DNA of 64,000 bases, from assembly GCA_947305795.1 (NCBI GenBank), contig CAMZEK010000008.1, positions 1-64,000 of the forward strand. The letters run 5' to 3'. Both the position numbers and the translations under genes were made by a program. Position 1 is the first letter of the stretch. Every line of letters begins with the position of its first letter. Under the pieces are notes generated by a model that worked only from the letters and a program-made list of their open reading frames with translations, was not told the DNA's origin and searched no databases. This DNA is from an uncultured Bacteroidales bacterium. GTDB lineage: Bacteria; Bacteroidota; Bacteroidia; Bacteroidales; F082. This document shows, piece after piece, positions 15,799 through 36,700 of this stretch.

Positions 15799-15848
15799 AA
15801 ATAATAATCTATTGATTTTCATATAGATATCGTTTTTATAATATTTAT

Positions 15849-15888
15849 AATGTATCAGAATTGCGACATGTAGCGATTTTGATACATT
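15849..15888. promoter_or_regulatory. Long inverted repeat upstream of HTH gene, possible operator
   Basis: AATGTATCAGAATTGC (15849-15864) pairs with GCGATTTTGATACATT (15873-15888) over 16 positions with two G-T pairs and an 8-base loop. The outer nine bases are perfect. There is no T tract, so it is not a standard terminator. The right arm contains TTTGATACAT, repeated at 16212-16221 on the other side of the HTH gene. Confidence 0.55.
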
Positions 15889-15956
15889 ATTTATATTAAT
15901 GTAAACTATTATTCATTTTCTTTGCATTTCAAGAAAAGTTGAATAGTAGATTCATA

Positions 15957-16196
15957 ATGAAAGCAATACATATTGGAACCGAGATTAAATCAAAGGTCAA
16001 GATGCGTAAAATGACGGTTGTCAATTTTGCCAAGCAATTGGGCTGTCACCGCACGCACGTTTACCGCATTTTTGAGTCGTCATCCATCGACACGACCACG
16101 CTCTTGCATATTTCCGTCATTTTGGAGTATGACTTCTTTAAGCTTTATTCTGAAAAGGTTACTATGCGTTTGGCGAGTAAGGAACGGGATTCCTGA
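15957..16196 (+). CDS. Small HTH-type DNA-binding protein
   Basis: From ATG 15957 the product is 79 residues; an upstream in-frame TTG at 15939 is less likely because the conserved part begins MKAIHIGTEIKSKV. Residues 20-45 (VVNFAKQLGCHRTHVYRIFE) read as a helix-turn-helix with Cro/XRE character, followed by SSIDTTTLLHISVILEYDFF, a pattern common in short Bacteroidales regulators. There is no other domain. The gene lies between two TTTGATACAT motifs and directly before the FHA/kinase operon. I infer that it regulates itself and possibly that operon; no binding data exist. Confidence 0.8.
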   Translation: MKAIHIGTEIKSKVKMRKMTVVNFAKQLGCHRTHVYRIFESSSIDTTTLLHISVILEYDFFKLYSEKVTMRLASKERDS

Positions 16197-16211
16197 TTAA
16201 AGTGTAGTAAA

Positions 16212-16221
16212 TTTGATACAT
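16212..16221 (+). promoter_or_regulatory. TTTGATACAT motif between HTH gene and FHA operon
   Basis: An exact copy of the 10-base core found in the right arm of the inverted repeat at 15849-15888. It lies 85 bases before the first FHA gene. A TTTTCTTTGCA element follows each copy (15916-15926 and 16269-16279), so the two upstream regions resemble one another. Confidence 0.45.
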
Positions 16222-16305
16222 GTTCTATTTCTGCTACACCAAGGGCCATTATAGAAGGTCGGATTTTCTTTTCTTTGCACCAAGCATAACTAAATTCAGA
16301 TAAAT

Positions 16306-17058
16306 ATGTCACAAAACAAAACCAGATTCCCTGGCATGAACGAAGGCCAAGGGAGAGAAGCAAACAGCGTTTATTCAAGAGATGCCTATAATCCTCAAAA
16401 TGAGGGCGGTCGTCCTACAGGACGCGGTGAAAGAGCCACGCGCATCCCGGAGGTGGAAAACAGCCAAAAAGGGCAGAAGCAGCCAAGCAACAACGGCAAA
16501 CCCGTCAGAGGTTTCCTCTATTCGATTTCGAGAGGGGTGGTCGGAGAGTTTTGGCCGCTCCACCAAGGCAAGAACACGATAGGCTCGTCGCCGAAATGCG
16601 ACATCTGCCTGCCGGAAGCTACGGTTTCGGAGGAGCATGCCTCGCTGACCATTCGCATCCTTGAGAACCAAGAGAAGACTATCGCCTCATTGAAGGACAC
16701 AGATTCGACAAATGGCACCAAGATTAACGGCGAAGACGTGGATTTCGACGCCAACAAGTGCAAGGATGGCGACATCATCCGTTTTGGCTCAAGCTACGAA
16801 TGCCTCTTGATTCTCATCGACACCAAGGAAAGAGGTCTGAAAGTGGCCGAAAACTTCATTCCTGCTGATGAGGGAGCTCCCTCTGCCTCAGGTGGTTTTG
16901 TACCGGAAGACAACAACGAGCCGATTTTCTACCAAGAGCAGAGTCAGGGTGGCACTCGAGGAATGCAATCACCGCAAGGTGGTGGGGATGGCACCCGTGG
17001 AATGGACGGCGGCCCCTACTTCGGCGGCGACTCGCACCACCACACAGTAGGCATGTAA
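16306..17058 (+). CDS. FHA-domain protein, first gene of the signalling cluster
   Basis: The 250-residue soluble protein has one FHA (phosphothreonine-binding) domain at about residues 70-172: IGSSPKCDI, SEEHASL and DSTNGTKING mark the recognition loops. The position of the conserved FHA Arg after IG is Ser here, but the SxxH and TNGT elements are kept. Flanking regions are disordered, Gly/Pro-rich, and hold four Thr-Arg sites (KTRFPGM, ATRIPEV and GTRGM twice) that could be kinase targets. It probably acts as a cytoplasmic phospho-dependent adaptor for the two downstream kinases. The next gene starts 12 bases after its stop. TTTTCTTTGCA and TTTGATACAT lie upstream. Confidence 0.88.
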   Translation: MSQNKTRFPGMNEGQGREANSVYSRDAYNPQNEGGRPTGRGERATRIPEVENSQKGQKQPSNNGKPVRGFLYSISRGVVGEFWPLHQGKNTIGSSPKCDICLPEATVSEEHASLTIRILENQEKTIASLKDTDSTNGTKINGEDVDFDANKCKDGDIIRFGSSYECLLILIDTKERGLKVAENFIPADEGAPSASGGFVPEDNNEPIFYQEQSQGGTRGMQSPQGGGDGTRGMDGGPYFGGDSHHHTVGM

Positions 17059-17070
17059 TAGTTGAGAATC

Positions 17071-18783
17071 ATGGCCGTTATCAGATTACAAAACGAAACC
17101 GGCGACAGGAACGTTTACTATGAATTCGACCCGTCGTCGGCACCGCTTGGTGAGGGCGGCATGGGACGTGTTTTCCGTGGTGTGCGCGTTGACAGGAATG
17201 GCGCAACCCGCGACGTGGCCATCAAGGTGATGTTTGACGATCTTCCCGAACATGTCATCGAAAGGGCGCGTCGTGAGGCTTCCGTCAGGATTCTCAACGA
17301 CAACCTGCTGGAAATGATTGATTTCGTGGAAGTCAAGGAGAGGAATAGCTACGGCGAGGTGATGGCTACGCACTATCACGTGGTGAGCGAGTTTCTCAAT
17401 GGCGTGAACATCGATGACCTTCTTATTGGCAAGACGACCAATCACGATGGGCAGCCCAATCCGACAGCGGAACGGCTTTATCTCGAATACCAGAACAACC
17501 GTGCCAAATTTGTGGGCTACGTCTTCCGCAATATCCTTTCGGGCATCATGGCGTTGCATCTGGCGGGTTATATCCATCGCGACATCGACCCGTCCAACAT
17601 TATGGTTACTTCCGAAGGAAAAATCAAGTTGATTGACTTCGGTATCGCCCGTCAGGTGAGCACGTTGGGCACACAAGACAAGCACTTGACCAGCACGGGA
17701 CAATTCCTTGGAAAACCTTACTATGCAGCGCCAGAGTTGTTGTTGGGCGACATTGCGCATCAAGACGCTACCACTGACATTTATGCTCTGGGTATCATGC
17801 TGTTCCAGTTGATGGCGGGGCATTTGCCTTTTGATGGGCCGATGCACGAGGTGTATGACAAGCAACTGAAGTCGAACCTGCCGTTGAAGGAGATTTCGGA
17901 TTCGACAGTTGCGAAAATCATCGCCAAGGCGACCCAGAAGAAGCAGGAGAAACGCTATCAGACTGCTGCTGAGTTCATGGTCGACATCGACCGTTGGATG
18001 ATGAGCGTATCGAAATCCTCAGGTTCCAGCGACAAAGGCAACCTCATGAAAGTCGGTTTGATTGCGGCCAGCGTGGCGGTCATTGCTACGGCAGCCGTGC
18101 TTCTGGCCGGACGTTTCGGTTCGTCCGACAAGGTTGACTCCAACAATCCACGGGCGAATGATGTTATTGTTGAGAATACTGTCCAGCAACCAAAGGAGAC
18201 ACGGGAAGAGCCTCAACCTCAGCCACAGCCTGAGCCTGAACCTGAACCTGAGCCTGAGCCTGAACCAATCCAGGAAGTATCTCCACTGCCGAATCAGCAG
18301 TTGGCAATCAACAGCATAGCACAGGTCGAGAGCCTTTTGATGGACAAGCGTACGGCGCAGGAAGGATTCCAGCAACTCAAAGCTATGGTTGACGCAGGGA
18401 ACTATGATGCCACGTATCTGATGAGCCGACTCTATTTCAATCCTTCGGACAAGGACACGGCTTTCTACCAAAAGGAATGGAAAACCATGCGCGAAAACAG
18501 CGGCATCAGTGCAGACAATATCAAGGCACACCAGTTGCTCTTTGATGCCTTTGAAAAGAACGACACCGATTGTGAGATGCTTTACCAGTTGGGCTGCGAC
18601 TTCATGTCAGGTTCGGCAAGAGGTTGTGAGCGCGACACGAAACAAGCCGCATGGTGCTTCAATCAAGCCAATAACTCGCTTAAGAATTTTGGCGGAAATA
18701 ACGCCGACCGATACAAAAGCGAGATTCAGAACAAGATGCAACGATTGGCCAATGCCAATCCCCAGCGTCCCGTGAAGCCTTAA
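17071..18783 (+). CDS. Transmembrane Ser/Thr protein kinase with periplasmic repeat-like region
   Basis: From ATG 17071 the product is 570 residues (a TTG at 17062 would add three). The kinase domain spans about 15-310: glycine loop GEGGMG (28-33), VAIK Lys52, Glu69, HRD at 169-171 and DFG at 189-191. The catalytic loop reads HRDIDPSN: the Lys normal at HRDxK in Ser/Thr kinases is Asp, which may lower or alter activity. A transmembrane helix lies at about 328-347, then a periplasmic Pro/Gln/Glu-rich linker (Pro-Glu dipeptides near residues 386-403) and a helical Sel1/TPR-like region to the end. This is a PknB-like topology without PASTA domains. It is followed by a second kinase after 13 bases. 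Confidence 0.93.
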   Translation: MAVIRLQNETGDRNVYYEFDPSSAPLGEGGMGRVFRGVRVDRNGATRDVAIKVMFDDLPEHVIERARREASVRILNDNLLEMIDFVEVKERNSYGEVMATHYHVVSEFLNGVNIDDLLIGKTTNHDGQPNPTAERLYLEYQNNRAKFVGYVFRNILSGIMALHLAGYIHRDIDPSNIMVTSEGKIKLIDFGIARQVSTLGTQDKHLTSTGQFLGKPYYAAPELLLGDIAHQDATTDIYALGIMLFQLMAGHLPFDGPMHEVYDKQLKSNLPLKEISDSTVAKIIAKATQKKQEKRYQTAAEFMVDIDRWMMSVSKSSGSSDKGNLMKVGLIAASVAVIATAAVLLAGRFGSSDKVDSNNPRANDVIVENTVQQPKETREEPQPQPQPEPEPEPEPEPEPIQEVSPLPNQQLAINSIAQVESLLMDKRTAQEGFQQLKAMVDAGNYDATYLMSRLYFNPSDKDTAFYQKEWKTMRENSGISADNIKAHQLLFDAFEKNDTDCEMLYQLGCDFMSGSARGCERDTKQAAWCFNQANNSLKNFGGNNADRYKSEIQNKMQRLANANPQRPVKP

Positions 18784-18796
18784 TAACCAATCTGCT

Positions 18797-19732
18797 ATGG
18801 AACAAAGGACGATATTCCAGCGTGAGGGCGACCCCTACCTTTATTTATATGTAATGGGGGAGTGGTATTGCTATGATCCGGAATCGGAGCCTTTGGGTAG
18901 CGGTGCCATGGGAACGGTGTATCTTGGGTTTCGTGTGAAGAATGGCGATAAAATCGCCGTCAAACGTGTGAAGGATGCTTTTGCCAACAACAAGATGATT
19001 CGTGATCGTGCGCGGCAGGAAGCCTCGCTCGCGTTCCGCCATCCCAATCTCGTAGAGATGATTGGCTGCTGTATGACATCACCCGACTCGGGGCCGATTT
19101 TTCTGTTAAGCAAATTCGTCTCCGGCCAGGATATTGACAAGTTCATCAAACAGTTTCCTGAAGGCTCTGCAAAGGTGGAAAAGACCTGCATGGCCATGTA
19201 CCAAGTGCTTGATGCTTTGGAATACGTGCATTCGAAGGGCATTGTGCACCGCGACATCAAACCGTCGAACATTATGGTGGAGAATGAGTCGAATGTCAGG
19301 CTGATGGACTTGGGCATCGCCCGCATGAACGGAGGCAACCGCTTTTCGATGGCAGGTTTTATCGGCACTCCGCAATATGCCGCACCCGAGCAGATCGCCC
19401 GTAATGACAAAAACAGTCTACCCATCAATGCTGCAACCGACATTTACGCCTTGGGTGTCACGTTTTATGAGTTGTTGACGGGTTACAATCCTTTCGACAG
19501 CGAAAGTGAGATGGAAACCTTGACCCGACAGATGCGTGACCCGCTGCCCAAAAACGAACATGTTCCGAAACGGTTAATGCAGGTGTTGTTGAAGGCCACT
19601 GAGAAGGACCAGTCGAAGCGCTTTCAAACGGCCGCCGAGTTCAAGCGGGCCATTGAAACTGCGATGGTGGGCCCTGTAACCTTCAAAGAGAAGGTAATGA
19701 ATGCGTTTTTATATTTAGGATTAAAGAAATAA
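18797..19732 (+). CDS. Soluble Ser/Thr protein kinase
   Basis: The 311-residue protein is essentially a kinase domain: GSGAMG loop (34-39), AVK Lys56, Glu75, HRDIKPSN (151-158) with the catalytic Asp and Lys, and an activation segment beginning DLG (171-173) in place of DFG, then GTPQYAAPEQ (190-199). All residues needed for phosphotransfer are present, so of the two adjacent kinases this one looks the more canonical. There is no transmembrane segment; a short hydrophobic C terminus (FLYLGLKK) might associate with membranes. It likely phosphorylates Thr in neighbouring FHA partners. A PP2C phosphatase gene follows after 20 bases. Confidence 0.95.
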   Translation: MEQRTIFQREGDPYLYLYVMGEWYCYDPESEPLGSGAMGTVYLGFRVKNGDKIAVKRVKDAFANNKMIRDRARQEASLAFRHPNLVEMIGCCMTSPDSGPIFLLSKFVSGQDIDKFIKQFPEGSAKVEKTCMAMYQVLDALEYVHSKGIVHRDIKPSNIMVENESNVRLMDLGIARMNGGNRFSMAGFIGTPQYAAPEQIARNDKNSLPINAATDIYALGVTFYELLTGYNPFDSESEMETLTRQMRDPLPKNEHVPKRLMQVLLKATEKDQSKRFQTAAEFKRAIETAMVGPVTFKEKVMNAFLYLGLKK

Positions 19733-19752
19733 AGACAGATAAGCCTTAATAA

Positions 19753-20952
19753 ATGGATTTACATCAAGTTAAAACAGAACTGCCCATCATCGGCTATTGT
19801 GAGTCGCGCATCGGAGGACGTTCCGAGAATCAGGACTCGTATGGCTACCAGGACACGCCCTTTGGGTTGTTGGTCACCGTATGCGACGGCATGGGTGGCG
19901 GACCGGGGGGCAAGACGGCATCTTCCATTGCGGTACGCGAAATCCTTGGTGGCGTGATGGAAGCCAACGGGGACAATAGTCCGGAGAACGTCTTGTTGCA
20001 GGCCATACACCGTGCTAATCTCGCCATCTTGGATGCAGGTGCTGAGAATCCGAAATTGCAAGGTATGGGAACGACCTGCACGGCAGTACTCTTTTCCAAG
20101 AAATCGGCCATTGTTGCCCATGTGGGCGACAGCCGCGTGTACCAATTGCGTCGGCATAGCAAGATATTCCGCACCTTCGACCATTCCATGGTGTTCGAGT
20201 TGGTGAAGCAGAAAGTCATTACCGAAGAGCAGGCACGCCTTTCGGAGCAGTCCAACTACATCACCCGAGCGTTGGGCATCAAGCCTGAATTGAGCATTGA
20301 TGTCGTGGAACGGCCTTACGAGAAAGGCGACCGTTTCCTGCTCTGTACTGATGGTATTCATGGCGCTATGCCTGAGAACGAGCTTTTGGTCATGGCCACG
20401 AAATCTGGCAACTTGGGCAAAGTGGTTGACGACATCGCCACTGCCGTGGACGGTCAGGGTCGCTCGAAAGGTGGCGGGCATGACAATCTCACTTTGGCAA
20501 TGATAGAGACTCAGTCGAAATCGGAGTTGAAGGAAAGAATGAACCTGAGGACAAAACTCATCATGGCAGGCATCGTTGTCCTTGTAATAGCTGGAGGTTT
20601 GGTTTTCGGCATCAGCCAATGTTCCAAGAAACTCAAGAAAGAGTTGCCTAAAATCGAAAAACCTGTTGATACAGTTGTCCAACCTGAACAGAAAATCGAC
20701 ACGCCTATGGAAAAACCTGATGACGTCAAGGTGATGGAACAGCCGAATACTGAGCAAAACCTTAATCCGTCTCCAGAGGATCCGGTTGGAACTGAATTAC
20801 CTGTTGAAACAGAGGGGAAAGAACAGCAGCCTACGCCTGAAGAGGAGCCTGTCCCCGCATTCGATAAAGAAATAGAATTAACAAATAACAATAATTCCAT
20901 AAATATCCATTATTATGAAAAGTTACTCGATTGGAAGAGACATGGGCTGTGA
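19753..20952 (+). CDS. PP2C-family protein phosphatase with transmembrane anchor
   Basis: The 399-residue protein has a PP2C domain at about 8-255 with all metal-binding motifs: ENQDSYG (25-31), VCDGMGGG (43-50), HVGDSRVY (123-130), CTDGIHG (198-204) and GGHDN (241-245). PP2C enzymes remove phosphate from Ser/Thr and typically oppose a partner kinase encoded nearby, here the two preceding kinases. A transmembrane helix at about 267-288 is followed by a periplasmic tail rich in Pro, Glu and Gln, like those of the first kinase and the next FHA protein. The last 12 codons overlap the start of the next gene in another frame (20915-20952), so translation may be coupled. Confidence 0.95.
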   Translation: MDLHQVKTELPIIGYCESRIGGRSENQDSYGYQDTPFGLLVTVCDGMGGGPGGKTASSIAVREILGGVMEANGDNSPENVLLQAIHRANLAILDAGAENPKLQGMGTTCTAVLFSKKSAIVAHVGDSRVYQLRRHSKIFRTFDHSMVFELVKQKVITEEQARLSEQSNYITRALGIKPELSIDVVERPYEKGDRFLLCTDGIHGAMPENELLVMATKSGNLGKVVDDIATAVDGQGRSKGGGHDNLTLAMIETQSKSELKERMNLRTKLIMAGIVVLVIAGGLVFGISQCSKKLKKELPKIEKPVDTVVQPEQKIDTPMEKPDDVKVMEQPNTEQNLNPSPEDPVGTELPVETEGKEQQPTPEEEPVPAFDKEIELTNNNNSINIHYYEKLLDWKRHGL

Positions 20953-21601
20953 TATCGTGATGAATGACAATACGGATGTCATCAGCAGGCGTCACGCCGT
21001 TCTCACAGTGTCATCGTCAGGGAAAATGACCATTACCGACCAAAGTAGCAATGGAACCTACGTCAACGGCATCAAAATCTCGCCCAATGTGGCGGTGCCT
21101 GTTACGCGTAAAGATTCCGTTTCGTTCGCGCATGTGGCCACCCTCGACTGGAATATGATTCCAAAAACGAACAATTGGATTACTTATCTTATTGTGGGAC
21201 TGATCGTTGCCGCCATCGCCGCATTGCTGGTGCTTTGGCTCACACGAGAAAAGAATCCTAACAATCCGCCGACGGAGAATCCTCCCGTTCAAGTGATTGA
21301 CACGGTTCAGCAACCCCAACCCGAAGTCATTGAAAAACAGGAACCTGAAGTGAAACCGGCACCTGAGGAAATCCAAGAACCTGCTCCCGAGACCGAACGT
21401 CCCGACACGATCAATCCAACTGAAGGAGGCTCAAAAGACGAAACTCCAGAAAACGTCAGTCCCGACGAAGACAAGCCGGATGGCGATTCGGGCAAGAAGC
21501 CAAAGGATAACCAAGGCAAGAAAAAGTCCAAGAAAGGCAACAAAAAGGAAGAAGAACCCAAAAAGGATGACAATTCCAATACTCGTCCTGTTGGGGTATA
21601 A
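20915..21601 (+). CDS. FHA-domain membrane protein
   Basis: The 228-residue protein starts directly in an FHA domain (about 1-80) with canonical phosphothreonine contacts: IGR (6-8), SRRH (24-27) and SSNGTYVNG (44-52). A transmembrane helix lies at about 88-109, then a periplasmic tail of about 115 residues that is Pro/Glu-rich and finally Lys-rich, with no folded domain. Of the FHA modules in this cluster it has the most complete binding site, so it is the best candidate reader of the kinases' mark at the membrane. It overlaps the phosphatase gene by 38 bases, supporting co-production. Confidence 0.9.
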   Translation: MKSYSIGRDMGCDIVMNDNTDVISRRHAVLTVSSSGKMTITDQSSNGTYVNGIKISPNVAVPVTRKDSVSFAHVATLDWNMIPKTNNWITYLIVGLIVAAIAALLVLWLTREKNPNNPPTENPPVQVIDTVQQPQPEVIEKQEPEVKPAPEEIQEPAPETERPDTINPTEGGSKDETPENVSPDEDKPDGDSGKKPKDNQGKKKSKKGNKKEEEPKKDDNSNTRPVGV

Positions 21602-21640
21602 TTAGTAAAAAGGAAGTATTAATCAATAAAACATAGTCTT

Positions 21641-23266
21641 ATGAAATTACTTAAAATTGGCAGCAACCCGCAAAATGACATTGTTTATAACAGTAACAAA
21701 GTCAGTGGCATGCATGCAGAAATCATCCTCCTCAACAATGGTGACATCCTGCTCGAAGACAAGAACAGTCTCAATGGCACGTATGTCATGAACCAAAGAA
21801 TCAAACCCGCTACGGCGGTGACCATCAGACGCGGCGATGCCGTGCGTTTCGCCGACACGGAACTGCAATGGAATCAGGTGCCTTATCCTGAGGACAACAG
21901 CATGTATTCCAAGGTCTTAGGTATCGGTAGCAACTTCCGCAACGAGATTCAGGTGACGGGCAACACGGTAAGCCGTTTCCACGCCACTCTCAAAGTGGAC
22001 AAACAAGGCAAGGCTTACATCGAGGACCACAGCATGAACGGCACTACGGTGAACGGTCAACGCATTGCCTCGCACCAGAATGTCCGCGTGAAACCCAGTG
22101 ACGCTGTGGCCGTGGGCGGTGTGCCGATTAATCTAAAGAACTACATATCTGCTGACACCAAGTCAATCATGCTAAAAGTGTTAGGTGGTCTCTTGGCCGT
22201 GGCAGCAGTGGTTGCCATAGTGCTTTTGCTGAGGAAGCCCGATACAGGCAAACCGTCGACACAACAACCTGTTGCAATTGCGACCGACACCACAAGACAA
22301 CAAATTGCTCCCGCTAACAAAGTGAGCAACAATCCTTCCATAGATGCTCTTTGGGATGCTACAGTTTTTGTGTATGGCGCGTTCAAGGTTGATTTGACCA
22401 TCAAGAACGATCCGTTCAAAGGCCGTCAGGGATGGCCCCAGGTATGGACATTTGGTTTTAACCAGAATGGTGCTTGGGAGCTTTTCGGAGAAAACGCTTG
22501 CTGGTATTCAGGTACCGCGTTTTTCGTTTCCCCTTATGGTGAAATGGCTACCAATCGTCACGTCGCTTATCCTTGGCTTGCCGGTGTTGTTGACGACGTG
22601 AGTGTGGTGACCGAGATTAAAGCCCAGATGATTGCAGTGTTCAACCGTCTCTTAAACAACGATTTCTTCCAAAGCAATCTTGGCATCGATTATAACAATG
22701 AGGGAGACAGAGCTAAAATGCAGCTCTTGCTCCAATCCGATTTCGAGGTCTCAGGTCACCACGAGTTCCTTGGTGTGTTGCTGCCTCATCAGAACTTCAG
22801 TTCTACCAATGACTTTATGTCATGCAAGCCCGTTGCTGAATCCGGTGACCCCAAGAAAGACGTGGCTCTTTTGAGGTTGAACTCTCAACAGACCCCCCCC
22901 AGCATTGTTAGGAATGGATATTATCGGCTTGAGACTGCCCGTGCTGACCAAAGTACTATTGGGTTGAATGAACCATTGACCAGCATCGGTTATCCTACAG
23001 GACAGTTCTTGAGTACATTTATCGGTAATTCCAATGAAAGTACACCTACCTACACTAACCTCACGGTGAGCAAAAGACCCGACGAATACCAGTTCCAGGC
23101 CCAAGGTCTCTCCATTGGCGGAGCTAGCGGCTCTCCTGTTTTAGACAAAGACCGCAACCTTGTTGGTGTGCTTTGGGGACGCGCAGGTGCTTCCGACCAA
23201 GTTGTGTTTATATGTAACATCAAGCATTTTATTGAAATCTACGAAAAACACAAGGTGACGAAATGA
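21641..23266 (+). CDS. Membrane-anchored FHA-FHA-trypsin-like serine protease fusion
   Basis: Two FHA domains (about 1-80 and 88-165) precede a transmembrane helix at about 175-197 and a trypsin-like protease domain at about 235-541 that should lie in the periplasm. The protease triad is visible: His307 in ATNRHV, Asp407 in KKDVALLRL and Ser496 in GGASGSPV. The FHA modules keep SLNGT and SMNGT but both lack the IGR Arg; the second keeps SRFH. A cytoplasmic phospho-reader directly fused across the membrane to a protease suggests that cytoplasmic phosphorylation controls periplasmic cleavage. No PDZ domain is present, unlike HtrA. A C8 tract lies in the protease coding region upstream of the Ser codon. 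Confidence 0.92.
   Translation: MKLLKIGSNPQNDIVYNSNKVSGMHAEIILLNNGDILLEDKNSLNGTYVMNQRIKPATAVTIRRGDAVRFADTELQWNQVPYPEDNSMYSKVLGIGSNFRNEIQVTGNTVSRFHATLKVDKQGKAYIEDHSMNGTTVNGQRIASHQNVRVKPSDAVAVGGVPINLKNYISADTKSIMLKVLGGLLAVAAVVAIVLLLRKPDTGKPSTQQPVAIATDTTRQQIAPANKVSNNPSIDALWDATVFVYGAFKVDLTIKNDPFKGRQGWPQVWTFGFNQNGAWELFGENACWYSGTAFFVSPYGEMATNRHVAYPWLAGVVDDVSVVTEIKAQMIAVFNRLLNNDFFQSNLGIDYNNEGDRAKMQLLLQSDFEVSGHHEFLGVLLPHQNFSSTNDFMSCKPVAESGDPKKDVALLRLNSQQTPPSIVRNGYYRLETARADQSTIGLNEPLTSIGYPTGQFLSTFIGNSNESTPTYTNLTVSKRPDEYQFQAQGLSIGGASGSPVLDKDRNLVGVLWGRAGASDQVVFICNIKHFIEIYEKHKVTK
22893..22900 (+). repeat. Poly-C (C8) tract within protease gene
   Basis: Eight consecutive C residues encode part of Gln-Thr-Pro-Pro at about residues 417-420 of the FHA-FHA-protease. 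Gain or loss of one base would shift the frame before the catalytic Ser496. Confidence 0.9.
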
Positions 23267-24783
23267 TGAAACGTGTCCTATTGCTGGTTTTTGGTGTTTT
23301 GGTCATTGTTCCGGTTGTGCATGCCCAGACTGCGAAGTGGAAGATGCATCCAGAATACGACAAAATCAGCTATTACAGTAACGACATGTTCAAGTGTTGG
23401 GAAGACGGCAAGTTGCAGCTTCTCGACTGGAACGGAAATAATGTGTTGCCTCATGTCGTGGATTCCGTCACCGATTATGCTGACGGTTATGCCCTCGTCC
23501 TTGAGAGATCAGGTTCGTATTTTAGAATCGCTGGCTTTCTTATGGAAAAAGGTCACCAATTCCAGACCTTGAGCGGTGAGTATTACACAAATCGTTATTC
23601 TCATTTTTCGGAGGGCATGTTGTCTGTCATTGATGCCCAAGGGAAAGCTGGTTATCTTGACAAGAAGGGGAATCTCGTCATTCCCTGCCGTTACGCTGAA
23701 GCCCGTCCTTTCTTGAAAGGATGGGCCTCGGTGAAAGGCGACGACAAGAAGGTCAACTACATCGACCAGGTGGGGCGTGTGATGGTCATCAAGTTCCATT
23801 ATGGTGATTTGACCGTGGGCACGAGTTTCAACCAAAAGGGAGAGGCTATGGTGGCCAATTTTCAGGATTGCGCCATCATCAATGTGAGCGGCGAAGTGAC
23901 CGGGAAATACAGGAAAAGCAAGAAAATGCCAGTGCGCTCCTATGACTATTCCTTCGATGAAGACTTTGAGGATACCCCTGGCCCAACCAATGCCAAACCT
24001 GTTTATGAGAAGGGTGTGGAAGTCTTTTCCTATGGCAACAAGTTAGGTTACAAGGAAGGGGAGAAGGTGATGCTGAAGCCCCAATTTACCGATGCGAAGC
24101 CTTTTGCTGACGGTATGGCCATTGCAGCCCTCGATGGCAAGTATGGCATCTTGACTCGTGTCAACGGTAATGTTTCATCAGATGTCAACGGCAAAAACAT
24201 CATGTATGTATCGAGCAAGTCTGTGAGCAATTTTACCTTCAATTTGGATTTGCCTTCGGGAATAGATCCGTCTTCAGTGTCGGTGAATCTGGATAGCGGT
24301 GATGGCACCATGAATCCCATTGAGCTGAAAAATGGCAAATATACTTTCAAGCCTGTTTTCGATGCGAGCGCTGAAGCTGAAAGGTTCACGGTAAAGGCGG
24401 AGGTCTATTACGACGGGCTTTTGCTGAGCGATCTTGAAAAGGATTTCGAGGTGAATTACGTCCGCGTCAGCGTTGCGAAGCCGAAAGTCACCAAGGAATA
24501 TGCCGATGACAAGGACAACCAGAAAGTCGTAGCGTATGTCACGAACAACTCGAAAGCCGAACTCAATGTTTCGGTGACGATGACTGCATCCGTCACAGCA
24601 GTGGGCAATAGTGTACAACCCGTGACACGTGAGTTGAAAATCAATGCTGGCGAAACGAAAGAAGTGTCGGTGACCTTCAAGGTGGCCGAACAGGAAAGCG
24701 TCAAGGTAAAAGCAACGGCTACAGTCCAAGGCGTTACTTGTGGCAGTAGCGAATCAACTGTTACATTGAAACCATTTTATTAA
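23263..24783 (+). CDS. Exported WG-repeat protein
   Basis: The 506-residue product has a signal peptide (about 1-22, ending VVHAQ). Residues about 40-290 hold WG-type repeats: LLDWNGNNVLP, GYLDKKGNLVIPCRYAEARPF, NYIDQVGRV and MLKPQFTDAKPFADGMA. These repeats usually form beta-rich surfaces of unclear function. The C-terminal part (about 310-506) is beta-sandwich-like with Val/Thr-rich strands resembling bacterial immunoglobulin-like folds. The ATG at 23263 overlaps the protease stop (ATGA), so it belongs to the same operon; an alternative Met follows immediately. It is likely a periplasmic or surface partner of the protease. Confidence 0.85.
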   Translation: MMKRVLLLVFGVLVIVPVVHAQTAKWKMHPEYDKISYYSNDMFKCWEDGKLQLLDWNGNNVLPHVVDSVTDYADGYALVLERSGSYFRIAGFLMEKGHQFQTLSGEYYTNRYSHFSEGMLSVIDAQGKAGYLDKKGNLVIPCRYAEARPFLKGWASVKGDDKKVNYIDQVGRVMVIKFHYGDLTVGTSFNQKGEAMVANFQDCAIINVSGEVTGKYRKSKKMPVRSYDYSFDEDFEDTPGPTNAKPVYEKGVEVFSYGNKLGYKEGEKVMLKPQFTDAKPFADGMAIAALDGKYGILTRVNGNVSSDVNGKNIMYVSSKSVSNFTFNLDLPSGIDPSSVSVNLDSGDGTMNPIELKNGKYTFKPVFDASAEAERFTVKAEVYYDGLLLSDLEKDFEVNYVRVSVAKPKVTKEYADDKDNQKVVAYVTNNSKAELNVSVTMTASVTAVGNSVQPVTRELKINAGETKEVSVTFKVAEQESVKVKATATVQGVTCGSSESTVTLKPFY

Positions 24784-24801
24784 TATTAAAAAACTATTCT
24801 T

Positions 24802-25437
24802 ATGCGCAAACATGTATTACTATTCTTGCTTGCAGTATTAAGCTGCAGCTGTCTGTTCGCCCAAGATGAAGACTGGGGCCTTGACAGATCATTCAGAATT
24901 GCGTTAGGCCCTAAAGTCGGCGCAGGCGTGGCCGTGGGTAGCGATTCGAAAAACTACAACCTCAATCTGGGTGCCGGCCTTGGTTTCCAAGGCGGTCTGG
25001 CACTTAATGCCCACTTAGGTCGTCGTCATCCGGCGAGCGAAGGCGGCACAGGTTTGATTGGCATCGAAGTGGAAGGCCTTTATGGCATCAGGACCATTGC
25101 CGTTGAAGGCGAAGCCATGGGAATGAGCTGTTTGGAATTCCCCGTGCTTCTCCAAATCTATCCCATCCCAACCCTCGCCATCGAAGCAGGTGCCACTATG
25201 GTCAAGGGATTGAAAACCGTACCGGGAAGTCTCGAAGTGAACAATATGGTGCTGGGTGTAGGCGAAATGAAATCCAATGATGTGATGATTTCTTTCGGTG
25301 CCAGCTTCAATGCTCGTTTTGGCCTTTCGGTTGGCTTGCGTTACAATTTGGGTATGAGTAATTTAGCAGGCAACTTCGACAGCAAGGCTAGCTCCTTGAT
25401 GTTTTCGTTGGCCTATTTGTTCAAGATTGTCAAATAA
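24802..25437 (+). CDS. Outer-membrane beta-barrel protein
   Basis: The 211-residue product has a signal peptide (about 1-20, ending CLFAQ) followed by alternating amphipathic strands with frequent Gly (FRIALGPKVGAGVAV, LNLGAGLGFQGGLAL, MISFGASFNARFGLSVGLRY), the pattern of small eight-stranded barrels of the PorT/OmpA-like outer-membrane superfamily. It ends in a strand with FSLAYLFKIVK, which lacks a terminal aromatic residue. It starts 18 bases after the WG-repeat gene and precedes a lipoprotein gene by 18 bases, so it is part of the run. The role in this pathway is unknown. Confidence 0.85.
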   Translation: MRKHVLLFLLAVLSCSCLFAQDEDWGLDRSFRIALGPKVGAGVAVGSDSKNYNLNLGAGLGFQGGLALNAHLGRRHPASEGGTGLIGIEVEGLYGIRTIAVEGEAMGMSCLEFPVLLQIYPIPTLAIEAGATMVKGLKTVPGSLEVNNMVLGVGEMKSNDVMISFGASFNARFGLSVGLRYNLGMSNLAGNFDSKASSLMFSLAYLFKIVK

Positions 25438-25455
25438 CCAAGAAAGGAGAGAAAA

Positions 25456-26442
25456 ATGAAAAAGTATATCATTATGGCAACTGTGGCCGTGGCCATGCTG
25501 TTTGTCTCATGCAAGAACGAAGACATCAAAGTATCAAGAAACGTGAACTTCAAGATCAACCCGTACGAGGTCATCAGTGGCTTCGACTACGAGGTCGAAG
25601 AGGGTGAATTGGAGTCGTTCAGCTCTGATTATAAGCTCCGTATACACTTATTGGTTTACGATGAGAGCGGTTTCCTCCAAGGGACGGATGTACAGTTCCT
25701 CACCAACTACCAAAGCCTCATGAACTCTACAGTAGCTCTTACCGAAGGCAAATACACCGCTGTCGCAATTTCCGATGTGGTCAAATACGATGGCAGCAGT
25801 ATTACGATGAATTACTGGGACATTACCGGAACAGATCGTCTTTCCGACCTTAAGGTGGCTGACGCCGGGTATATTGGAGGCAAGTACAAAATCCTCGGCA
25901 TCTCCAATTATGATTTCGAGGTTAAGGAAGGCTCCGTTGACCATACCATTCATGTGAAGCCTGCGGGTGCCCTTATTCTCAGATTCGCATGGAACATCCA
26001 TTACTATAACATTGAGGAATATGAACTTGATATGAACAAAACGTCGGATTTCTGCACCTTCAACAATGACGGCACCTATGAAGTGGCTATCGAGAACCAT
26101 GGTGGAGACTATGACTGGCGTTTGTGCTATTTCGATCCGAAAGACTATTCTGACTACAATGGTTGCTATGGCTATTATTTCGTGCTGCCTTTGGGTAGGA
26201 CTTCTTTCCAATGGTACGGAAAGAGCGACAACTCATGGTATTATGTTGGTGACGAGATGTCGGCCAATATCAAGTTCGGTGAGGAATACTTGGCCTATCT
26301 TGAATTGGGCAGCGATATCATTGCTACGATGGAACTTGTGAACGGAACCAAAGCGGTTAGCTTGCCTGTGAATGCCAAAGAGGCAGTTCAAATCCAGTAC
26401 GGAAACGAATCCAACGTTGAGAACCCCCAACCTCTCAAGTAA
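25456..26442 (+). CDS. Lipoprotein with fimbrial-anchor-like features
   Basis: The 328-residue protein has a lipobox at MLFVSC with Cys19. The mature part is beta-rich and starts with a segment reminiscent of FimB/Mfa2 fimbrial anchor proteins (NFKINPY, then LRIHLLVYDESGFL and ALTEGKYTAVAISD), which tether and cap Bacteroidales fimbriae. The likeness is in pattern only, and no fimbrial subunit gene is nearby, so the function is open. A Shine-Dalgarno-like AAGGAGAG lies seven to ten bases before the start, one of few in this window. Its stop is eight bases before the next gene. Confidence 0.75.
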   Translation: MKKYIIMATVAVAMLFVSCKNEDIKVSRNVNFKINPYEVISGFDYEVEEGELESFSSDYKLRIHLLVYDESGFLQGTDVQFLTNYQSLMNSTVALTEGKYTAVAISDVVKYDGSSITMNYWDITGTDRLSDLKVADAGYIGGKYKILGISNYDFEVKEGSVDHTIHVKPAGALILRFAWNIHYYNIEEYELDMNKTSDFCTFNNDGTYEVAIENHGGDYDWRLCYFDPKDYSDYNGCYGYYFVLPLGRTSFQWYGKSDNSWYYVGDEMSANIKFGEEYLAYLELGSDIIATMELVNGTKAVSLPVNAKEAVQIQYGNESNVENPQPLK

Positions 26443-26450
26443 AGATAACG

Positions 26451-27722
26451 ATGAGAAAACTTTTGATATTAATAACTGTAGCTTTCGCTTTCTTTATTCC
26501 AGCAAAGGCTCAAGTTGTGCAGACGCTGAACCTGAAAGACGGGTCGGTGCTTTATGGCTTCATGAGAAGCCAGAAACCCGGCAGCAACTGCTTCTTCCAA
26601 ACGGAGAAGGCGGTCATCGTCATGGAAGGCAAGAAGGTGAAGGACATCACGACAAAGAAAGTGCTTTACAAAAACCTGTCGGACGAATGGAAGCAATGGG
26701 CGGAAGAGCATGAGGTGCTGTATGGCCTCGGCGACAACCGCGAAATGACCATGAGCACCCTCATCTGCACCGACGGTAAGCAGGTCAACGATGTCTATAT
26801 CCTTGAGAAAGGGCAAACGGTGAAATACGTTGAAAACGCCCCCAACAGCTATGCCTTGAGCTGGGACGACATTGTCTCCATCCAGCAACCGTGGAGGACG
26901 AACACATTGCTGAGCGGCATCAACCGTTCGTTCACCGTGAAAAAAGGCAACACGACCAGAGTGGTGGATGGCCAGTACATCAAGGAAATCCCTGGGAAGA
27001 CCATCTATCTCTATGAGGAAGACGGTGTTGTGGAGTCGTTTGACATTTTCGACCTCATCAAGGATAAATCCATAAAGAACAACCCCAACCAGAGTCTCTT
27101 CGAGCAAAGCATGTTGCTTGACGAAATCGAGATGAAGAATGGCACCACCTACAAGGGCATCATCACGGAGCGCAACTACGAGTATGGCTCCAAGTTGAAT
27201 GAGAGTTATCTGCTGATGACTTCGCTCACAGGTGGTGTGGAGTCCACCACGAGCATCAAGATGTCGGATGTGGCCGAATATCGCAAGCTGCGGAACACGG
27301 ACTACAAGCCTGTTTACGACATCCTGCTCCGTCCGGGTGACATGGTCATCAACCGCGAGGAAGCCGTTAAGGTCAAGCTTGATGAAGATGACAACAAGTT
27401 CATCGTCGAAGAGGAGATGGCCGAGAAGAGCATGAAGGTCAATCGAAGCACCCAAAAGGACAACCTCGTGGTGGAAGCCAACTTCCAGGACGAGAAGGAA
27501 GGCTTGAACTACATCCTTGTCCAAGCCAAGAAAGTCAGCAAGAAAAAGTCGAACCATTACGAGTTCGATTATGCCGACTTAATCAAGTCAAGCGTAGTTC
27601 CCACTGAGGTCGTCACCAGCATGAACCACACGACTAAACTTGCGTTCTGCCTTTCTGACGTGGGCCTTTATGTTTTGTTTAACAAAGTCACGAAGGACGC
27701 TGTCATTATTATGGTGGAATAG
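26451..27722 (+). CDS. Exported protein of unknown family, last gene of the signalling run
   Basis: The 423-residue product has a signal peptide (about 1-20, ending PAKAQ). The mature region is beta-rich with repeated short modules of the form DGSVLYGFM, NGTTYKGIITERN and SDEWKQW, and many charged Lys/Glu pairs. Similar GxxxxGxI modules occur in uncharacterised Bacteroidetes secreted proteins, but I cannot name a family. It begins eight bases after the lipoprotein gene, ending a ten-gene co-directional run. A convergent PfkB kinase gene ends six bases after its stop, so the run must terminate here. Function unknown; likely periplasmic or surface-exposed. Confidence 0.8.
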   Translation: MRKLLILITVAFAFFIPAKAQVVQTLNLKDGSVLYGFMRSQKPGSNCFFQTEKAVIVMEGKKVKDITTKKVLYKNLSDEWKQWAEEHEVLYGLGDNREMTMSTLICTDGKQVNDVYILEKGQTVKYVENAPNSYALSWDDIVSIQQPWRTNTLLSGINRSFTVKKGNTTRVVDGQYIKEIPGKTIYLYEEDGVVESFDIFDLIKDKSIKNNPNQSLFEQSMLLDEIEMKNGTTYKGIITERNYEYGSKLNESYLLMTSLTGGVESTTSIKMSDVAEYRKLRNTDYKPVYDILLRPGDMVINREEAVKVKLDEDDNKFIVEEEMAEKSMKVNRSTQKDNLVVEANFQDEKEGLNYILVQAKKVSKKKSNHYEFDYADLIKSSVVPTEVVTSMNHTTKLAFCLSDVGLYVLFNKVTKDAVIIMVE

Positions 27723-30789: not shown

Positions 30790-33700
30790 TTACCAAGCTA
30801 TCACCTTGACGGTGACCTGATTCTTGTTGTTCTGCAAGTTGATGAGGTACACACCTTTGGAGAGGCTATGGCTGACGCGCTGTGTGCTGCCGGCGTTGAT
30901 TTGCTGTTGCATCATCGGCTGACCGAGGATGTTGTAGACGGTCATTTGGTAATGGTCGTTGTCGCCGTTTTCGATGACAAACTCATGGTCGGCGCTCCAA
31001 ACCTTGATGTTGGCTTCGGCAACTTCTTCAACGTCATTGTAAGTGAGGTCGATGAAGATAGGCTCGTTGAGGCCGTTGGTCGGGTTGATGGTGTTGGCTT
31101 CGGGATACCATTGGCCGTTTTCGGAGGAGAACTCGTGGACGGTTTGGGCATCCATCGATGACGTCACGATGAGAGTGATGCCTGATTCGTTCACGTTGGG
31201 CAGGATGCCACCAAACCAGCCGTCGTTGCCAGCTACATGTTCCTTGTAGAAGTCGGCATACTGGTTGATATTGCCATAGTCTACGCCAGTGGTCTCGATA
31301 CTGGTGGTATAGACGGGACGTTCCTCATTAAGGTCGCCGTACATCAAGGCAAAGCTCATGGGAGCCTCGTCGCTCTTGACATAGAAGGCCGATCCGCTGT
31401 ATTCGTCGTTTTCGGTACCGAAATTGAGCACGGTGGCATAGTCCTCAGAGGTGAAGGTGTAAAGAACGTTTACTCCGTAGGCGCCGTCGTTGAGACGGAC
31501 ACGAAGATAGACATGGTTGCCGGGAGTGAAGCGGGCGTTGGCCGTGGTCTCGTTCATGAGCCAAACGAGGGCATAGCCTTCATCATCAGTAGTGAACACA
31601 CCATAGCTGCCTTCGGTGGAGAGGCTTGGGCTGGTGCTGCGGTAGAAACCTTCAGGGTTGACGTAGATTACATTGCCTGCGCCAGCGGTCTCGGGACCGT
31701 CGTCGCTGACCACGAATTGGTTGGTGTAGTGGTAGGTGGTGTTAGGATAGAGGTTGGCAAACTGTACCGGGACTGCAACAGGCACGCGGTTGTTGTTGGA
31801 ACCGTTGTTGCCTTGGATGTAAAGCGGCATCATGGCATTCATCATTGGCTCGTTATCGGAATGGACGGCACCAGATACGTTGACGGCCACATTTGCATAG
31901 TCGTTTTCGTAAGCGTATGAATTGGCGATGTAAACTCCGTCGTAGGTATTAGGCTCAAGGCCTTCCATCATACGGACATAGATGGTTGCTGGCAGCTCGG
32001 TGCATGGAAATTCGAGCACTCCGGTAAATGTTTCATCATCCAAAGAAATCTCGTACCATGAGCATGAAACAATATTGATTACGCCTTCATTTTCGAGGTT
32101 GACACCTGACAAAATGTAGCTCTGTGATTCTGACGGACCATGGCCTACCACATAGCTGAAGTCACCAAGATAATTCGGTGTGGCGATGAGGGTGGGGGTG
32201 GGCGAAGTGCTTCCAGAGGCAAGCCTGATGTCGTCGACTTCCCAACCGGCGGCTTCATCGTCGGTGCATTGGTATTTGAAACCGATATAGCAGTTCGAGC
32301 CATTGAAACCGTTCAGGCTGATTTCGCCGGATGCTACCCAGTTCCAACCGCCTTGTGAGAGTTCACATTCGAGGGCTTCCCAAGTGGCCGTGGTCGGGTC
32401 TTGGCCGTCGTAGTCGTTGGAGAAGTAAACCTCGATGTCGGGACCGTTGTAGTTGCGAGCCGTGACGAAGGTCAGCACCACATCGTTGTAACTGTCAAGG
32501 TCGAAGGCAGGCGAGATGAGCCAGTCGATGGTGGCAGGGTGGTTGTAGCCGTTGGCGTAGGCATAATGGTTGCCGCCGTATGAGGCAACGTGCCAGAGCG
32601 AATCGCCCTCTTGACAGACTTCAGTCCAGCCGTGCCAAGGATCCCAGTCGTCCTCCCATTCTTGCCAGAAGATGATGGTAAGGTCGTTTTGGATGATGTA
32701 ATCTGCGCTGACGACGGGGCTGTCGTTGCAGCCTTCCTTCAAGGCGTATGCCCAAATGGTCATGTTTTCATCCACGGTGATGGCTTCTCCATATTCGTTC
32801 CAAGGACCGATTTCGGAGTCGAGGCTGTAATAGATAGTGGCACCTTCAGTGGCGCAGTTGATGGTGATTTCCTGAATTTCATAATAGGTGCCGCTAGCGG
32901 GGTTGAAGGTTGGGGCTGCCACGGTGCAAGTGCCGCCTTCGCCTTGCATGAAGATGTCAAGGAAGAAGTTGTAATTCTCGCTGGCTATGTTTTGCGTATG
33001 GTAGGGGCCGAAGTTGTGGTTGCCGTTCAAAGCGAAAGCTCTTACAGGATTGTTGGCATTGGCGATGATGAAGCCCGTGTAGTTGGGTACCATGGCAGTC
33101 TCCTCCGAAGTGCCGATTTCGATGCTCCAAGCCGTGTTGTCACCGTTGGAGGCGAAGTTGGTGCTCGAAGTGTAGCCAATCATGTCGCCAGCGGCATTGG
33201 TGAAGGTGTAGCCGTCAGCTGTGATATTCACTGTCCAATAGAAGCTGTCTTCCTCGTTGAGGATGGAAGCGGGCAGGATTTCGTCACTGCCAGAAGTAGC
33301 AGAGGTGAACAAAACGCCTTCAGGCTTGCCAGAAGCAGCATTGCTCATGGCGTAATAGTCAGTAGCGCTCTCATCAAAACGGGCGGCAAAGACGATGCGG
33401 TTGCCGGCATTGAGTTGGCTCACATCGCTAATGCGGATGTAATTGTCGCCCGGAACGGGTTGCGCCGTGACGGTGCCGTTGCAGGTCACATCGATGTCGT
33501 CAAGTTCCGAATCAATAATCAGTGTTGTGGAATATGTGCCCACTGCAAGGCCTGCAGCCATCCTCACGTAGATGGTCTGGCTGATGATACCGTTTACTGG
33601 GTAAATCGTAATGTTCGGTTCATTCGAAAAACCATTTCCCGAAATGAGCGAAGTCTGGAAGCTGGAGCTGGTGTTACCCACGATAACGGGTGCTTCTATG

Positions 33701-36700
33701 TTCATTCCTGTGATGACGAACGACTGTTCGGCTGAGGGGCCATTGCCTTCAATATAGGTGAATCCCGACAAGTTAAGCGGAGTAACGGAAAGTACGGGGG
33801 TTGATGTGGATCCCATGAGTTGAATGTCATCGACTTCCCAACCGGCAGCGCCTTCATCAGTGCAGGTGTACTTGAAGCCGATGTAACAGTTCGTTCCGCT
33901 GAAACCGCCTAGAGCAATGTCGCCCGATTCAACCCAGTTCCAACTGCCTTGCGAAAGGTTGCAAACCAAAGGAACCCAAATGGCATTGGTGGGGTCTTCG
34001 CCGTCATAGTCGTTGGAGAAGAAGACTTCCAAATCGGGACCAGTGTAGTTCTTGGCTGTCCTGAAACTCAAAACGGGGTTGCTGATGTTGTCCAAATTGA
34101 AGGCGGGTGAGATGCACCAGTCTTCGTTGGCGCCGTGGTTGTAGCCGTTGGCGTAAGCATAGTGGTTGCCTTGGTAAGAGGCAACATTCCAGGTCATTTC
34201 GCCTTCCACGTCGACGAAGGTCCAGCCGTTCATTTCGCCTTCCCAGTCTTGGTTGAAGATGGTGGCTACACCGACTTGGATGATATAGGTGGCCTCAGCG
34301 ATGGCGCTGTTGTTGTAGTCTTCTTTCACGGCCATTGCCTTGATGGTGGTGGTCTCGCTGATGGTCAAAGGCGAGCTGTAAATGGGACTGCTCTCGCTCG
34401 GGTCGCTGCCATCAAGAGTGTAATGGATGGTAGCACCTTGGGTGGAGCAACTGATGGCCACGGTTTGGGCCTCAGAGTAGGTGCCGGCGGCGGGACTGAA
34501 GGTGGGTGTGGCTACGGTAGGCGTGGGTGGGTCGCCGCCATCCGATTTCACGAAGAGGTCAAGGTAGAAGTTGTAGCCATTGTTGTTGATATTGTTGGTG
34601 TGGTAGGGACCGAAATTGTGGTTGCTGTTTAAGGCAAAGCATCTTGCCTCGTTGTTCACATTGTTGATGACGAATCCCGTGTAGTTGGGCACCATGGTTC
34701 CATCGCCAGCAGTGTCGAGAGTGATGGCCCATTCGGTGTTGTCGCCGCCCGTGGCGAAGTTGGTGCTGCTTGTGTAACCAATCAACTCACCGAGGGCATT
34801 GGTGAAGGTATAGCCGTTGCTGGTCACGCCAACCGTCCAATAGTAGCTGTTTTCTTCATCAGTAATGCTGGCAGGCAGGATCTCGTTACCATCCGAGGTC
34901 GTCGAGGTGAACAAAACGCCTGTGGGTTTGCCTGATGAGGCATTGCTCATGGCATAGTAACTTGTGGCATTGTCATCGAAGCGGGCGGCAAAAACGATGC
35001 GGTTGCCGGCAGCGAGTGTGCTTACGTCACTGATACGGATGTAGTCGTCGCCTGGAACGGGTTGCCCGATGACGTTGCCGCTGCAAGTGACTTCCACGGA
35101 GGTAGCATCAGTCGAGGCGATCACGATGTTTTCGTTGTTGTAGTTGCCGATGTTGAGGCCAGCTTTCATGCGGACGTAGAGGGTAGTTGTCTCTACATTG
35201 CCGTCAATAGGAGTGAGGTTGATAACGCTTTGGGCGTTGAAACCGCTGCCGCCTGTTGTCGAAATCTCGAAGTGTGAGGTCTCACTGATGACCAAGTCGG
35301 CATTCAGGTGAAGGGCTGAGACGGAGAAGCTCTGTTGCGTTGACGGGCCATTGCCTTCAATATAGCTGAATCCTGTGAGGCTCAATGGACTGGCCGTGAT
35401 GACAGGAGCAGAGGTTTGGTCGAAGAGCAAGATGTCGTCGACTTCCCATCCTGCGGCGCTTCCATCGGTGCAAGTGTATTTGAAGCCGATGTAACAGTTG
35501 CTGCCACTGAAGTCGCTTAGGTCAATGTCGCCAGATTCCGTCCAAGTCCAGCTCCCGGTGGAGAGGTTGCAGGGCAAGGCCGTCCATGTGGCTGTCGTGG
35601 GGTCTTCGCCGTCGTAGTCGTTGGAGAAATAGACTTCCATGTCGTTGCCGTTGTAGTTTTTGGCTGTACTGAAGCTCAAGGTCGGATTGCTAAAGATGTT
35701 GAGGTCGAAGGCAGGGGAGATGCACCAGTCTTCGTTGGCGCCGTGGTTGTAGCCGTTGGCGTAGGCGTAGTGGTTGCCTTGATAGCTGGCAACGGTCCAA
35801 GTCATTTCACCCTCCACGTCGACGAAGGTCCAGCCGTTCATTTCGCCTTCCCAGTCTTGGTTGAAGATGGTGGCTACACCGACTTGGATGATATAGGTGG
35901 CCTCAGCGATGGCACTGTTGTTATAGTCTTCTTTCACAGCCATCGCCTTGAGGGTGGTGGTCTCGCTGATGGTCAAAGGCGTGCTGTAGATAAGGCTGTT
36001 TTCTGTCGGGTCGCTGCCATCAAGAGTGTAATGGATGGTAGCACCTTGGGTGTTGCAACTGATGGTCACGGTTTGGGCCTCAGAGTAAGTGCCGGCGGCG
36101 GGACTGAAGGTGGGTGTGGCTACGGTAGGTGTGGGCGGGTCACCGCCATCCGATTTCACGAAGAGGTCAAGGTAGAAGTTGTAGCCACTGTTGTTGAGGT
36201 TGTTGGTATGGTAGGGGCCAAAGTTGTAGTTACTGTTCAAAGCGAAGCATCTCACAATGTTGTTCACATTGTTGATGACGAATCCCGTGTAGTTGGGCAC
36301 CATGGTTCCATCGCCAGCAGTGTTGAGAGAGATGGCCCATTCAGTGTTGTCGCCGCCTGTAGCAAAGTTGGTGCTGCTCGTGTAGCCAATCAATTCACCG
36401 AGGGCATTGGTGAAGGTATAGCCGTTGCTGGTCACGCCGACGGTCCAATAGTAGCTGTTTTCCTCATCAGTAATGCTGGCAGGCAGGATCTCGTTACCAT
36501 CTGAGGTCGTCGAAGTGAACAAAACGCCTGTGGGTTTGCCTGATGAGGCGTTGCTCATGGCATAGTAGCTTGTGGCATTGTCATCGAAGCGGGCGGCGAA
36601 GACTACTCGGCTCCCTGCCGTGAGTTGGCCGAGGTCGTTGATGCGAACGTAATCGCCCAAAGTAGGCGTGACTGGGGGCAATGGATCACCGCCGGTAACA

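Follow-up and report, generated by a model that had tools for sequence, protein, structure and literature searches.

A ten-gene operon conserved in Bacteroidales of the gut and rumen, read here from an uncultured member, encodes two kinases, a phosphatase, FHA proteins, and a membrane-tethered trypsin-like protease whose catalytic domain, judging from sequence comparisons, has been exchanged independently of the FHA half of the same protein. The operon lies at 16306 to 27722 in the 64,000-nucleotide stretch analyzed here (the window; GenBank assembly GCA_947305795.1, contig CAMZEK010000008.1, positions 1 to 64,000). We see an even chance that its genes, lettered A to J in run order, form a self-contained phospho-switch that spans the envelope and uses an exchangeable periplasmic protease. 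An initial annotation of this DNA had proposed an undescribed phospho-signaling circuit of ten co-oriented genes with small gaps or overlaps. The open reading frame (ORF) check agrees: every gene is on the plus strand, and the spacings from A to J are 12, 13, 20, -38, 39, -4, 18, 18, and 8 bp, with the 38-bp overlap of D and E at 20915 to 20952.

The domain content read from the ten genes was borne out by Pfam and a hydropathy scan, with the barrel of H below threshold and I and J outside any family. A (16306 to 17058) is a soluble adaptor with a Pfam FHA domain. B (17071 to 18783; Pfam Pkinase) is a Hanks-type kinase with one transmembrane (TM) segment, a Pro/Glu-rich linker, and about 220 residues past the TM segment; C (18797 to 19732; Pkinase) is a soluble Hanks-type kinase with HRDxK and DLG motifs. 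D (19753 to 20952; Pfam PP2C) is a phosphatase with a TM segment and a charged C-terminal tail, and E (20915 to 21601; Pfam FHA) joins an FHA domain through a TM segment to a Lys/Pro/Glu-rich tail. F comprises tandem FHA domains (residues 1 to 170; 21641 to 22150), a TM helix with linker (residues 171 to 237; 22151 to 22351), and a trypsin-like domain (22352 to 23266); Pfam finds two FHA domains and Trypsin_2 (E value of 1.6e-10). Downstream lie G, an exported WG-repeat protein (23263 to 24783; Pfam WG repeats); H, a small outer-membrane beta-barrel called from weak matches (24802 to 25437; Pfam OMP beta-barrel below the cut-off); I, a lipoprotein (25456 to 26442); and J, an exported beta-rich protein with possible small-barrel and Ig-like parts (26451 to 27722).

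Membrane and export calls come from the hydropathy scan only, used without a signal-peptide or topology predictor. One hydrophobic segment was found in each of B (residues 327 to 345), D (269 to 287), E (89 to 107), and F (178 to 196), an N-terminal segment in each of G, H, I, and J, and none in A or C. In B, D, E, and F, the kinase, phosphatase, or FHA parts lie on one side of the segment and the tails and the protease on the opposite side. Their domain types suggest that the kinase, phosphatase, and FHA parts face the cytoplasm.

The ten genes are a conserved unit. One scan of an 84,980-species collection with a three-sequence F profile gave 352 stretches and 121 relatives, from which the best 80 were kept; because it depends on two short peptide patterns, these counts are minimum values. 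Among these 80, 21 loci (L029 to L048 and L050) encode a complete FHA-FHA-TM-trypsin protein, two (L049 and L052) end at contig edges, and most others match FHA domains only. The operon, its genes called with hidden Markov models built from three loci, is present in records named Muribaculaceae, Bacteroides, Prevotella, Paraprevotella, and Alistipes and in further families, with Bacteroides rodentium, Prevotella communis, and Phocaeicola massiliensis among the named species. One record, L045, is titled Pseudoflavonifractor; because its FHA half is 90% identical to that of a Muribaculaceae record, we count the genome as probably mislabeled.

We compared 28 distinct loci, comprising scan loci, further genomes of the order, and one Phocaeicola record. 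D, E, and F are adjacent in all 28, and C precedes D in 26, no intact C being called in L041 or L193. J belongs to the same run in 27; the exception, L031, stops at a contig end. The most frequent order is A-B-C-D-E-F-G-H-I-(x)-J, where x is an S41 peptidase in L032, the sole case checked. In Prevotella-type loci, J stands directly 3′ of F, followed by a second PP2C gene, often a B-type kinase gene, and then G-H-I. The co-occurrence that the initial annotation had put forward as a check thus extends far beyond close relatives, into several families.

J and F track each other across genomes. In the genus, F was matched in 8 of 99 genomes and J in the identical 8 (Fisher P value of 6e-12). In the order, J was found in 6 of 393 genomes and F in those 6 plus 3 partial-profile matches (P value of 2e-13, or 2e-11 with the partial matches counted as contrary); the two sets share a few genomes. 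Because J and full F occur in identical genome sets, J is an obligate partner of F in this sample.

Beyond the order, 13 of 395 genomes of the phylum match F at an E value of 1e-20, several of them partially, and 8 of the 13 belong to family f136, presumably green sulfur bacteria from the BchL-like protein start in L155. Six of the eight f136 loci were examined: in L150 to L154, F is called beside FHA, PP2C, and kinase genes, with none of G to J called, and the sixth, L155, has a protease-like match only, with no FHA, PP2C, or kinase neighbors. Pfam, run on L150 as one of the five, found two FHA domains and Trypsin_2. Two Acidobacteria records carry one FHA domain with Trypsin_2 beside PP2C and a kinase. 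F had no match in 50,697 phage records, none of its 110 pattern matches in IMG/VR was confirmed, and its sole long match among plasmid records was a 140-kb Phocaeicola record typed as non-mobilizable; we rejected a mobile-element origin on these results.

The catalytic triad of F, whose integrity the protease proposal had called for, is intact: H307, D407, and S496 are invariant in 22 of 22 sequences. Two loci titled Prevotella, L042 and L048, share 96% identity in the FHA half of F and 22% in the protease; A, C, and J are 87, 88, and 89% identical there, and G (25%) and H (32%) are also divergent. L030 and L036 are 95% identical in the FHA half and 28% in the protease (G, 60%; H, 84%; J, 72%), and L030 and L037 are 93% and 26% identical. 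The window and L047 show the reverse pattern, with 67% identity in the FHA half and 88% in the protease. Sliding identity breaks at about residues 160 to 180, at the membrane helix, and rises at about residues 220 to 240 in the window/L047 pair.

At 38 to 42% identity, the protease domains form three types and one singleton, with T1, the type in the window, and T2 fusing at 33%. Placed on a core tree built from C and the cytoplasmic parts of D, E, and F in 27 loci, 10 changes of type are needed where the minimum possible is 3, and well-supported branches alone force 5 (T1), 4 (T2), and 3 (T3). On this tree, the type labels nevertheless retain some clustering (9 of 200 shuffles scored as low), the outcome expected when exchanges are common without being unrestricted. 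In the protease tree, T1 and T3 each form one clade and T2 is not resolved, and approximately unbiased (AU) tests on the protease data reject five core-tree clades (P values of 2e-4 to 4e-62). Between the window and G018, the genome of L047, synonymous divergence, computed without A, B, and I, is 1.23 for the protease, matching 1.22 for the single chromosomal marker used, a gene we take to be glmM; it is 1.77 for the linker and at least 2.5 or saturated for C, D, E, the FHA half, G, H, and J. These comparisons indicate that the protease domain has been exchanged separately from the FHA half of F, with the break at the membrane helix. Rapid divergence alone does not account for this pattern, because the types recur across unrelated core backgrounds. 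The protease has been swapped repeatedly on an otherwise fixed operon, and its targets therefore probably vary between strains.

Covariation of the protease domain with 12 partners was measured as partial correlation given C (permutation P values). The largest value was for I (0.37, P = 0.003, n = 19), followed by the outer part of B (0.22, P = 0.002), H (0.20, P = 0.026), the kinase half of B (0.18, P = 0.019), J (0.18, P = 0.0075), the FHA half of F (0.15, P = 0.047), G (0.14, P = 0.064), the cytoplasmic part of E (0.14, P = 0.041), the outer part of E (0.13, P = 0.043), the cytoplasmic part of D (0.10, P = 0.14), A (0.02, P = 0.37), and the D tail (-0.04, P = 0.70). Because relatedness was only partly controlled and the pair L036/L037 contradicts I, we claim no covarying partner.

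The FHA domains differ in the Arg that contacts phosphate, for example in Rad53. E keeps it in 22 of 22 sequences, with the motif G-R-S-H-N-G equally constant. In F, the first FHA domain has Arg in 16 of 22 and the second in none of 22, and both have Ser in the window; A has Arg in 5 of 21 and, again, Ser in the window. The remaining FHA residues (Gly, Ser, His, Asn, and Gly) are invariant save one Asn in A. Because the Arg is kept throughout E and missing from both FHA domains of the window's F, E, not the protease-fused FHA domains, is the predicted canonical phosphothreonine reader. The initial annotation had kinase signals read by the FHA modules of F; the location holds, as all four FHA matches of the source genome (80% complete) fall in the locus, but direct reading by F is weakened, and the reading role probably falls to E. 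Some E proteins (L030, L036, L037, and L047) carry, in place of the Lys/Pro/Glu-rich tail, repeats past the TM segment that end in LYAQW or LYAKW and look InlB-B/Flg_new-like by eye.

Kinase motifs are invariant in C (21 of 21 sequences) and, among 27 sequences, in B except at the catalytic-loop Lys, which is Asp in 26 and Ser in 1; the HRDxD of the B family in place of HRDxK is an unusual catalytic loop. The metal-site Asp residues of D are invariant (23/23), and its tail in the window, at 110 residues, is the longest among 28 compared. In the source assembly, D is the only PP2C phosphatase found, and two of four kinases are at the locus. We infer that B, C, and D form a cognate kinase/phosphatase set.

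I has an invariant lipobox Cys19 (16/16), and its structure model (mean predicted local distance difference test score of 84) matches the FimA/Mfa2-like fold of type V pili (PDB 5nfi, 3gf8, and 4qdg; Foldseek, VIA); I is thus modeled as a lipoprotein with a fimbrillin-like fold. Similarity to PDB entries by sequence profile is negligible (best E value of 0.37), and 2 of 16 family members have Mfa2 Pfam matches. I is hypervariable, with 32% identity in L036/L037 and 37% in L034/L045, where other parts are 46 to 93% identical. A fold search with J gave no PDB match at an E value of ≤0.001; its C-terminal part has a middling Ig-like match (Z score of 5.7), with weak Tudor-like and small-barrel matches.

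In the phospho-switch that we favor, a surface or envelope event would be detected jointly by G, H, I, J, and the outer part of B, so that the signal would start from the envelope side. Sensing would shift the balance of kinases B and C against phosphatase D in the cytoplasm, and the resulting phosphothreonine would be read by E, the sole canonical FHA site. In A and F, the FHA domains may act mainly in assembly, gathering F, and gathering would cluster or free the trypsin-like domain on the periplasmic face, where an envelope target would be cut. J would be a dedicated partner of F, as substrate, cofactor, or brake, and the protease would be a cartridge that can be swapped while its FHA-FHA-TM base is conserved.

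Several observations weigh against this model. Loci are patchy, as the 8 of 99 genomes in the genus show. H and I were unrecognized in L121, L122, and L193, which retain F and J, so H and I appear dispensable in some loci. The lack of the conserved Arg from both FHA domains in the window's F weakens direct phospho-control of F, and neither I nor J has a sequence relative of known function. Protease type does not cleanly track I, since L036 and L037 share type T2 (60% protease identity) with the I proteins noted above at 32%.

The strongest rival, which we regard as possible but doubtful, is control of a surface fimbria, in which F would be dedicated to maturing or shedding the fimbrillin-like I along with its partners (G, H, and J), a role like that of arginine gingipains for FimA and Mfa1, with phosphorylation setting the timing. 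The fold of I, its two Mfa2-matching relatives, and its place at the top of the covariation ranking speak for this, as does the gingipain dependence of Mfa1 polymerization described in the text of PMC5954841. However, Pfam recognized no second fimbrillin, shaft or tip, among the ten genes (G and H being without fold models), F and J persist in the three loci where I was unrecognized, and F is predicted to be bound to the inner membrane and not exposed at the surface. The closest matches of I include the anchor Mfa2, which is not known to be processed by gingipains, and in L036/L037 one protease type accompanies strongly different I proteins.

A somewhat fainter prospect, which we raise tentatively, is an envelope arms race. 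I, as a surface lipoprotein, and its partners would sense an attacker (phage, contact toxin, or competitor), the kinase-phosphatase-FHA relay would pass the alarm inward, the tethered protease would cut the intruder or a self target, and its domain would be traded as moving targets demand, a cartridge that may be likened to the exchanged ends of polymorphic toxins. A search for known anti-phage systems with PADLOC completed no system, and we rejected a catalogued defense system on this result; the matches listed, up to 25 per kinase, were to models of kinases (PD-T4-6 and MAD6 among them), a single PP2C model, and protease models that scored weakly.

We think it improbable that F is an envelope-stress regulator that cuts an anti-sigma factor or cell-wall enzyme, as DegS and MarP do, with phosphorylation as an extra input. 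F does resemble these proteases in its TM-tethered trypsin-like domain with a full triad, and it has a weak MarP match (E value of 0.0035). It differs in its cytoplasmic FHA pair, in having no Pfam match to a PDZ domain at an E value of 0.1, in its single TM segment where MarP has several, and in a catalytic domain exchanged among lineages, which is unexpected in a housekeeping protease; Pfam also found no sigma or anti-sigma family among the ten genes. Chance placement of a phospho-signaling unit (A to F) beside an unrelated envelope operon (G to J) would accommodate the loci with unrecognized H and I, the greater distance of G-H-I from F in Prevotella-type loci, and the five f136 loci that have an F call and no G to J call, but is highly improbable given the identical genome sets of J and F and the retention of G-H-I in the run where J has relocated (L042, L046, L048, and L050).

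The nearest working analogy for the operon is the threonine phosphorylation pathway of the type VI secretion system (T6SS) without the secretion machine. In the Pseudomonas aeruginosa H1 T6SS, as presented in the text of PMC12133291, PpkA, PppA, Fha1, and TagQRST form a circuit in which an envelope event is read by a kinase; a membrane kinase, a phosphatase, an FHA protein, and envelope proteins are common to both. The counterpart of the transmembrane Hanks-type kinase is B, with intact motifs save the Asp in HRDxK; that of the PP2C phosphatase is D, with its presumed cognate kinases; and that of the FHA protein with phosphothreonine-binding residues would be E only. The operon differs in having two kinases and envelope genes G to J, one with a fimbrillin-like fold, and its output would be a periplasmic protease instead of a contractile machine. 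The initial annotation had stated that type VI genes were absent; in line with this, the sheath gene VipB (PF05943) was not found in the 80%-complete source genome with a positive Escherichia coli control, other type VI genes not having been searched. Because VipB was not found, we rejected T6SS membership.

KKP modules, in the text of PMC11341870, likewise pair two kinases with one PP2C phosphatase, but their kinases carry cold-shock and FHA domains; B and C have no Pfam match to either, and FHA domains are on separate proteins here. Type V pili (Mfa2, FimA-Mfa) share with the locus the modeled fold and lipobox of I and differ from it in the shaft or tip fimbrillin, which was not recognized. 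The circuit is not wholly undescribed. The FHA-FHA-Tryp architecture was tabulated in 2008 for Bacteroides thetaiotaomicron NP_811686.1 (PMC2605481); that protein has the same listed domain architecture as F and is probably an orthologue. The listing is silent on the operon, J, and protease exchange, and the word "kinase" is absent from the article's main text. In the literature searched, which left most subscription papers outside its coverage, we found no account of the operon, partner J, or protease exchange. What is new here is the protease exchange; the initial annotation had missed this and also J as obligate partner and the fimbrillin-like fold of I.

The interval originally assigned to the circuit begins at 15849, about 450 bases 5′ of A, and includes an inverted repeat and an eleventh small ORF. 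The repeat (15847 to 15890; 18 pairs, GATACAT/ATGTATC half sites) is a possible terminator or operator. Three of the window's seven GATACAT/ATGTATC motifs (15850, 15881, and 16215) flank the small ORF (15957 to 16196, plus strand), which encodes a 79-amino-acid helix-turn-helix (HTH)-like protein, and may be operator sites. This possible local regulator has no Pfam match; its L047 counterpart matches HTH_26, and similar small ORFs lie 5′ of A in 3 of 15 loci inspected by eye (L029, L030, and L047). Presumed glmM is followed by what we take to be a threonine-aldolase-like gene in five of six relatives, and by the HTH gene and operon in the window. Because of this, and because a search of the source genome, made without a positive control, did not find the threonine-aldolase-like gene, insertion of the operon 3′ of glmM is likely, short of proof. 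The Bacteroidetes -7 motif TANNTTTGY has no plus-strand match within the run, and a sigma-70 scan was near chance (18 matches against 14.0 expected); neither scan indicates a transcript.

Elsewhere in the window, 30790 to 37164 on the minus strand encodes a 2,124-amino-acid protein with chitobiase C-terminal repeats and a type IX sorting tail. Two loci in other genomes of the genus, L018 (2758 to 15873) and L019, hold a cluster of kinase and FHA genes. The L018 cluster also includes PP2C and adjoins an FHA-FtsK/SpoIIIE ATPase along with a weak WXG100 match, like a Bacteroidota type VII secretion relative. L020 (7703 to 18597) holds a kinase/FHA/PP2C cluster with a fusion of three FHA domains to an ABC transporter, which we take to resemble mycobacterial Rv1747.

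The kinase/FHA/PP2C relay seems to be plugged into differing outputs. To our knowledge, the best-known outputs of Hanks-type kinase, PP2C, and FHA proteins are cytoplasmic or are secretion machines. If the relay described here joins a periplasmic protease, a phosphorylation signal would be passed across the inner membrane through proteolysis, and independent exchange of that protease on a fixed base, unexpected for a housekeeping enzyme, points to changing targets.

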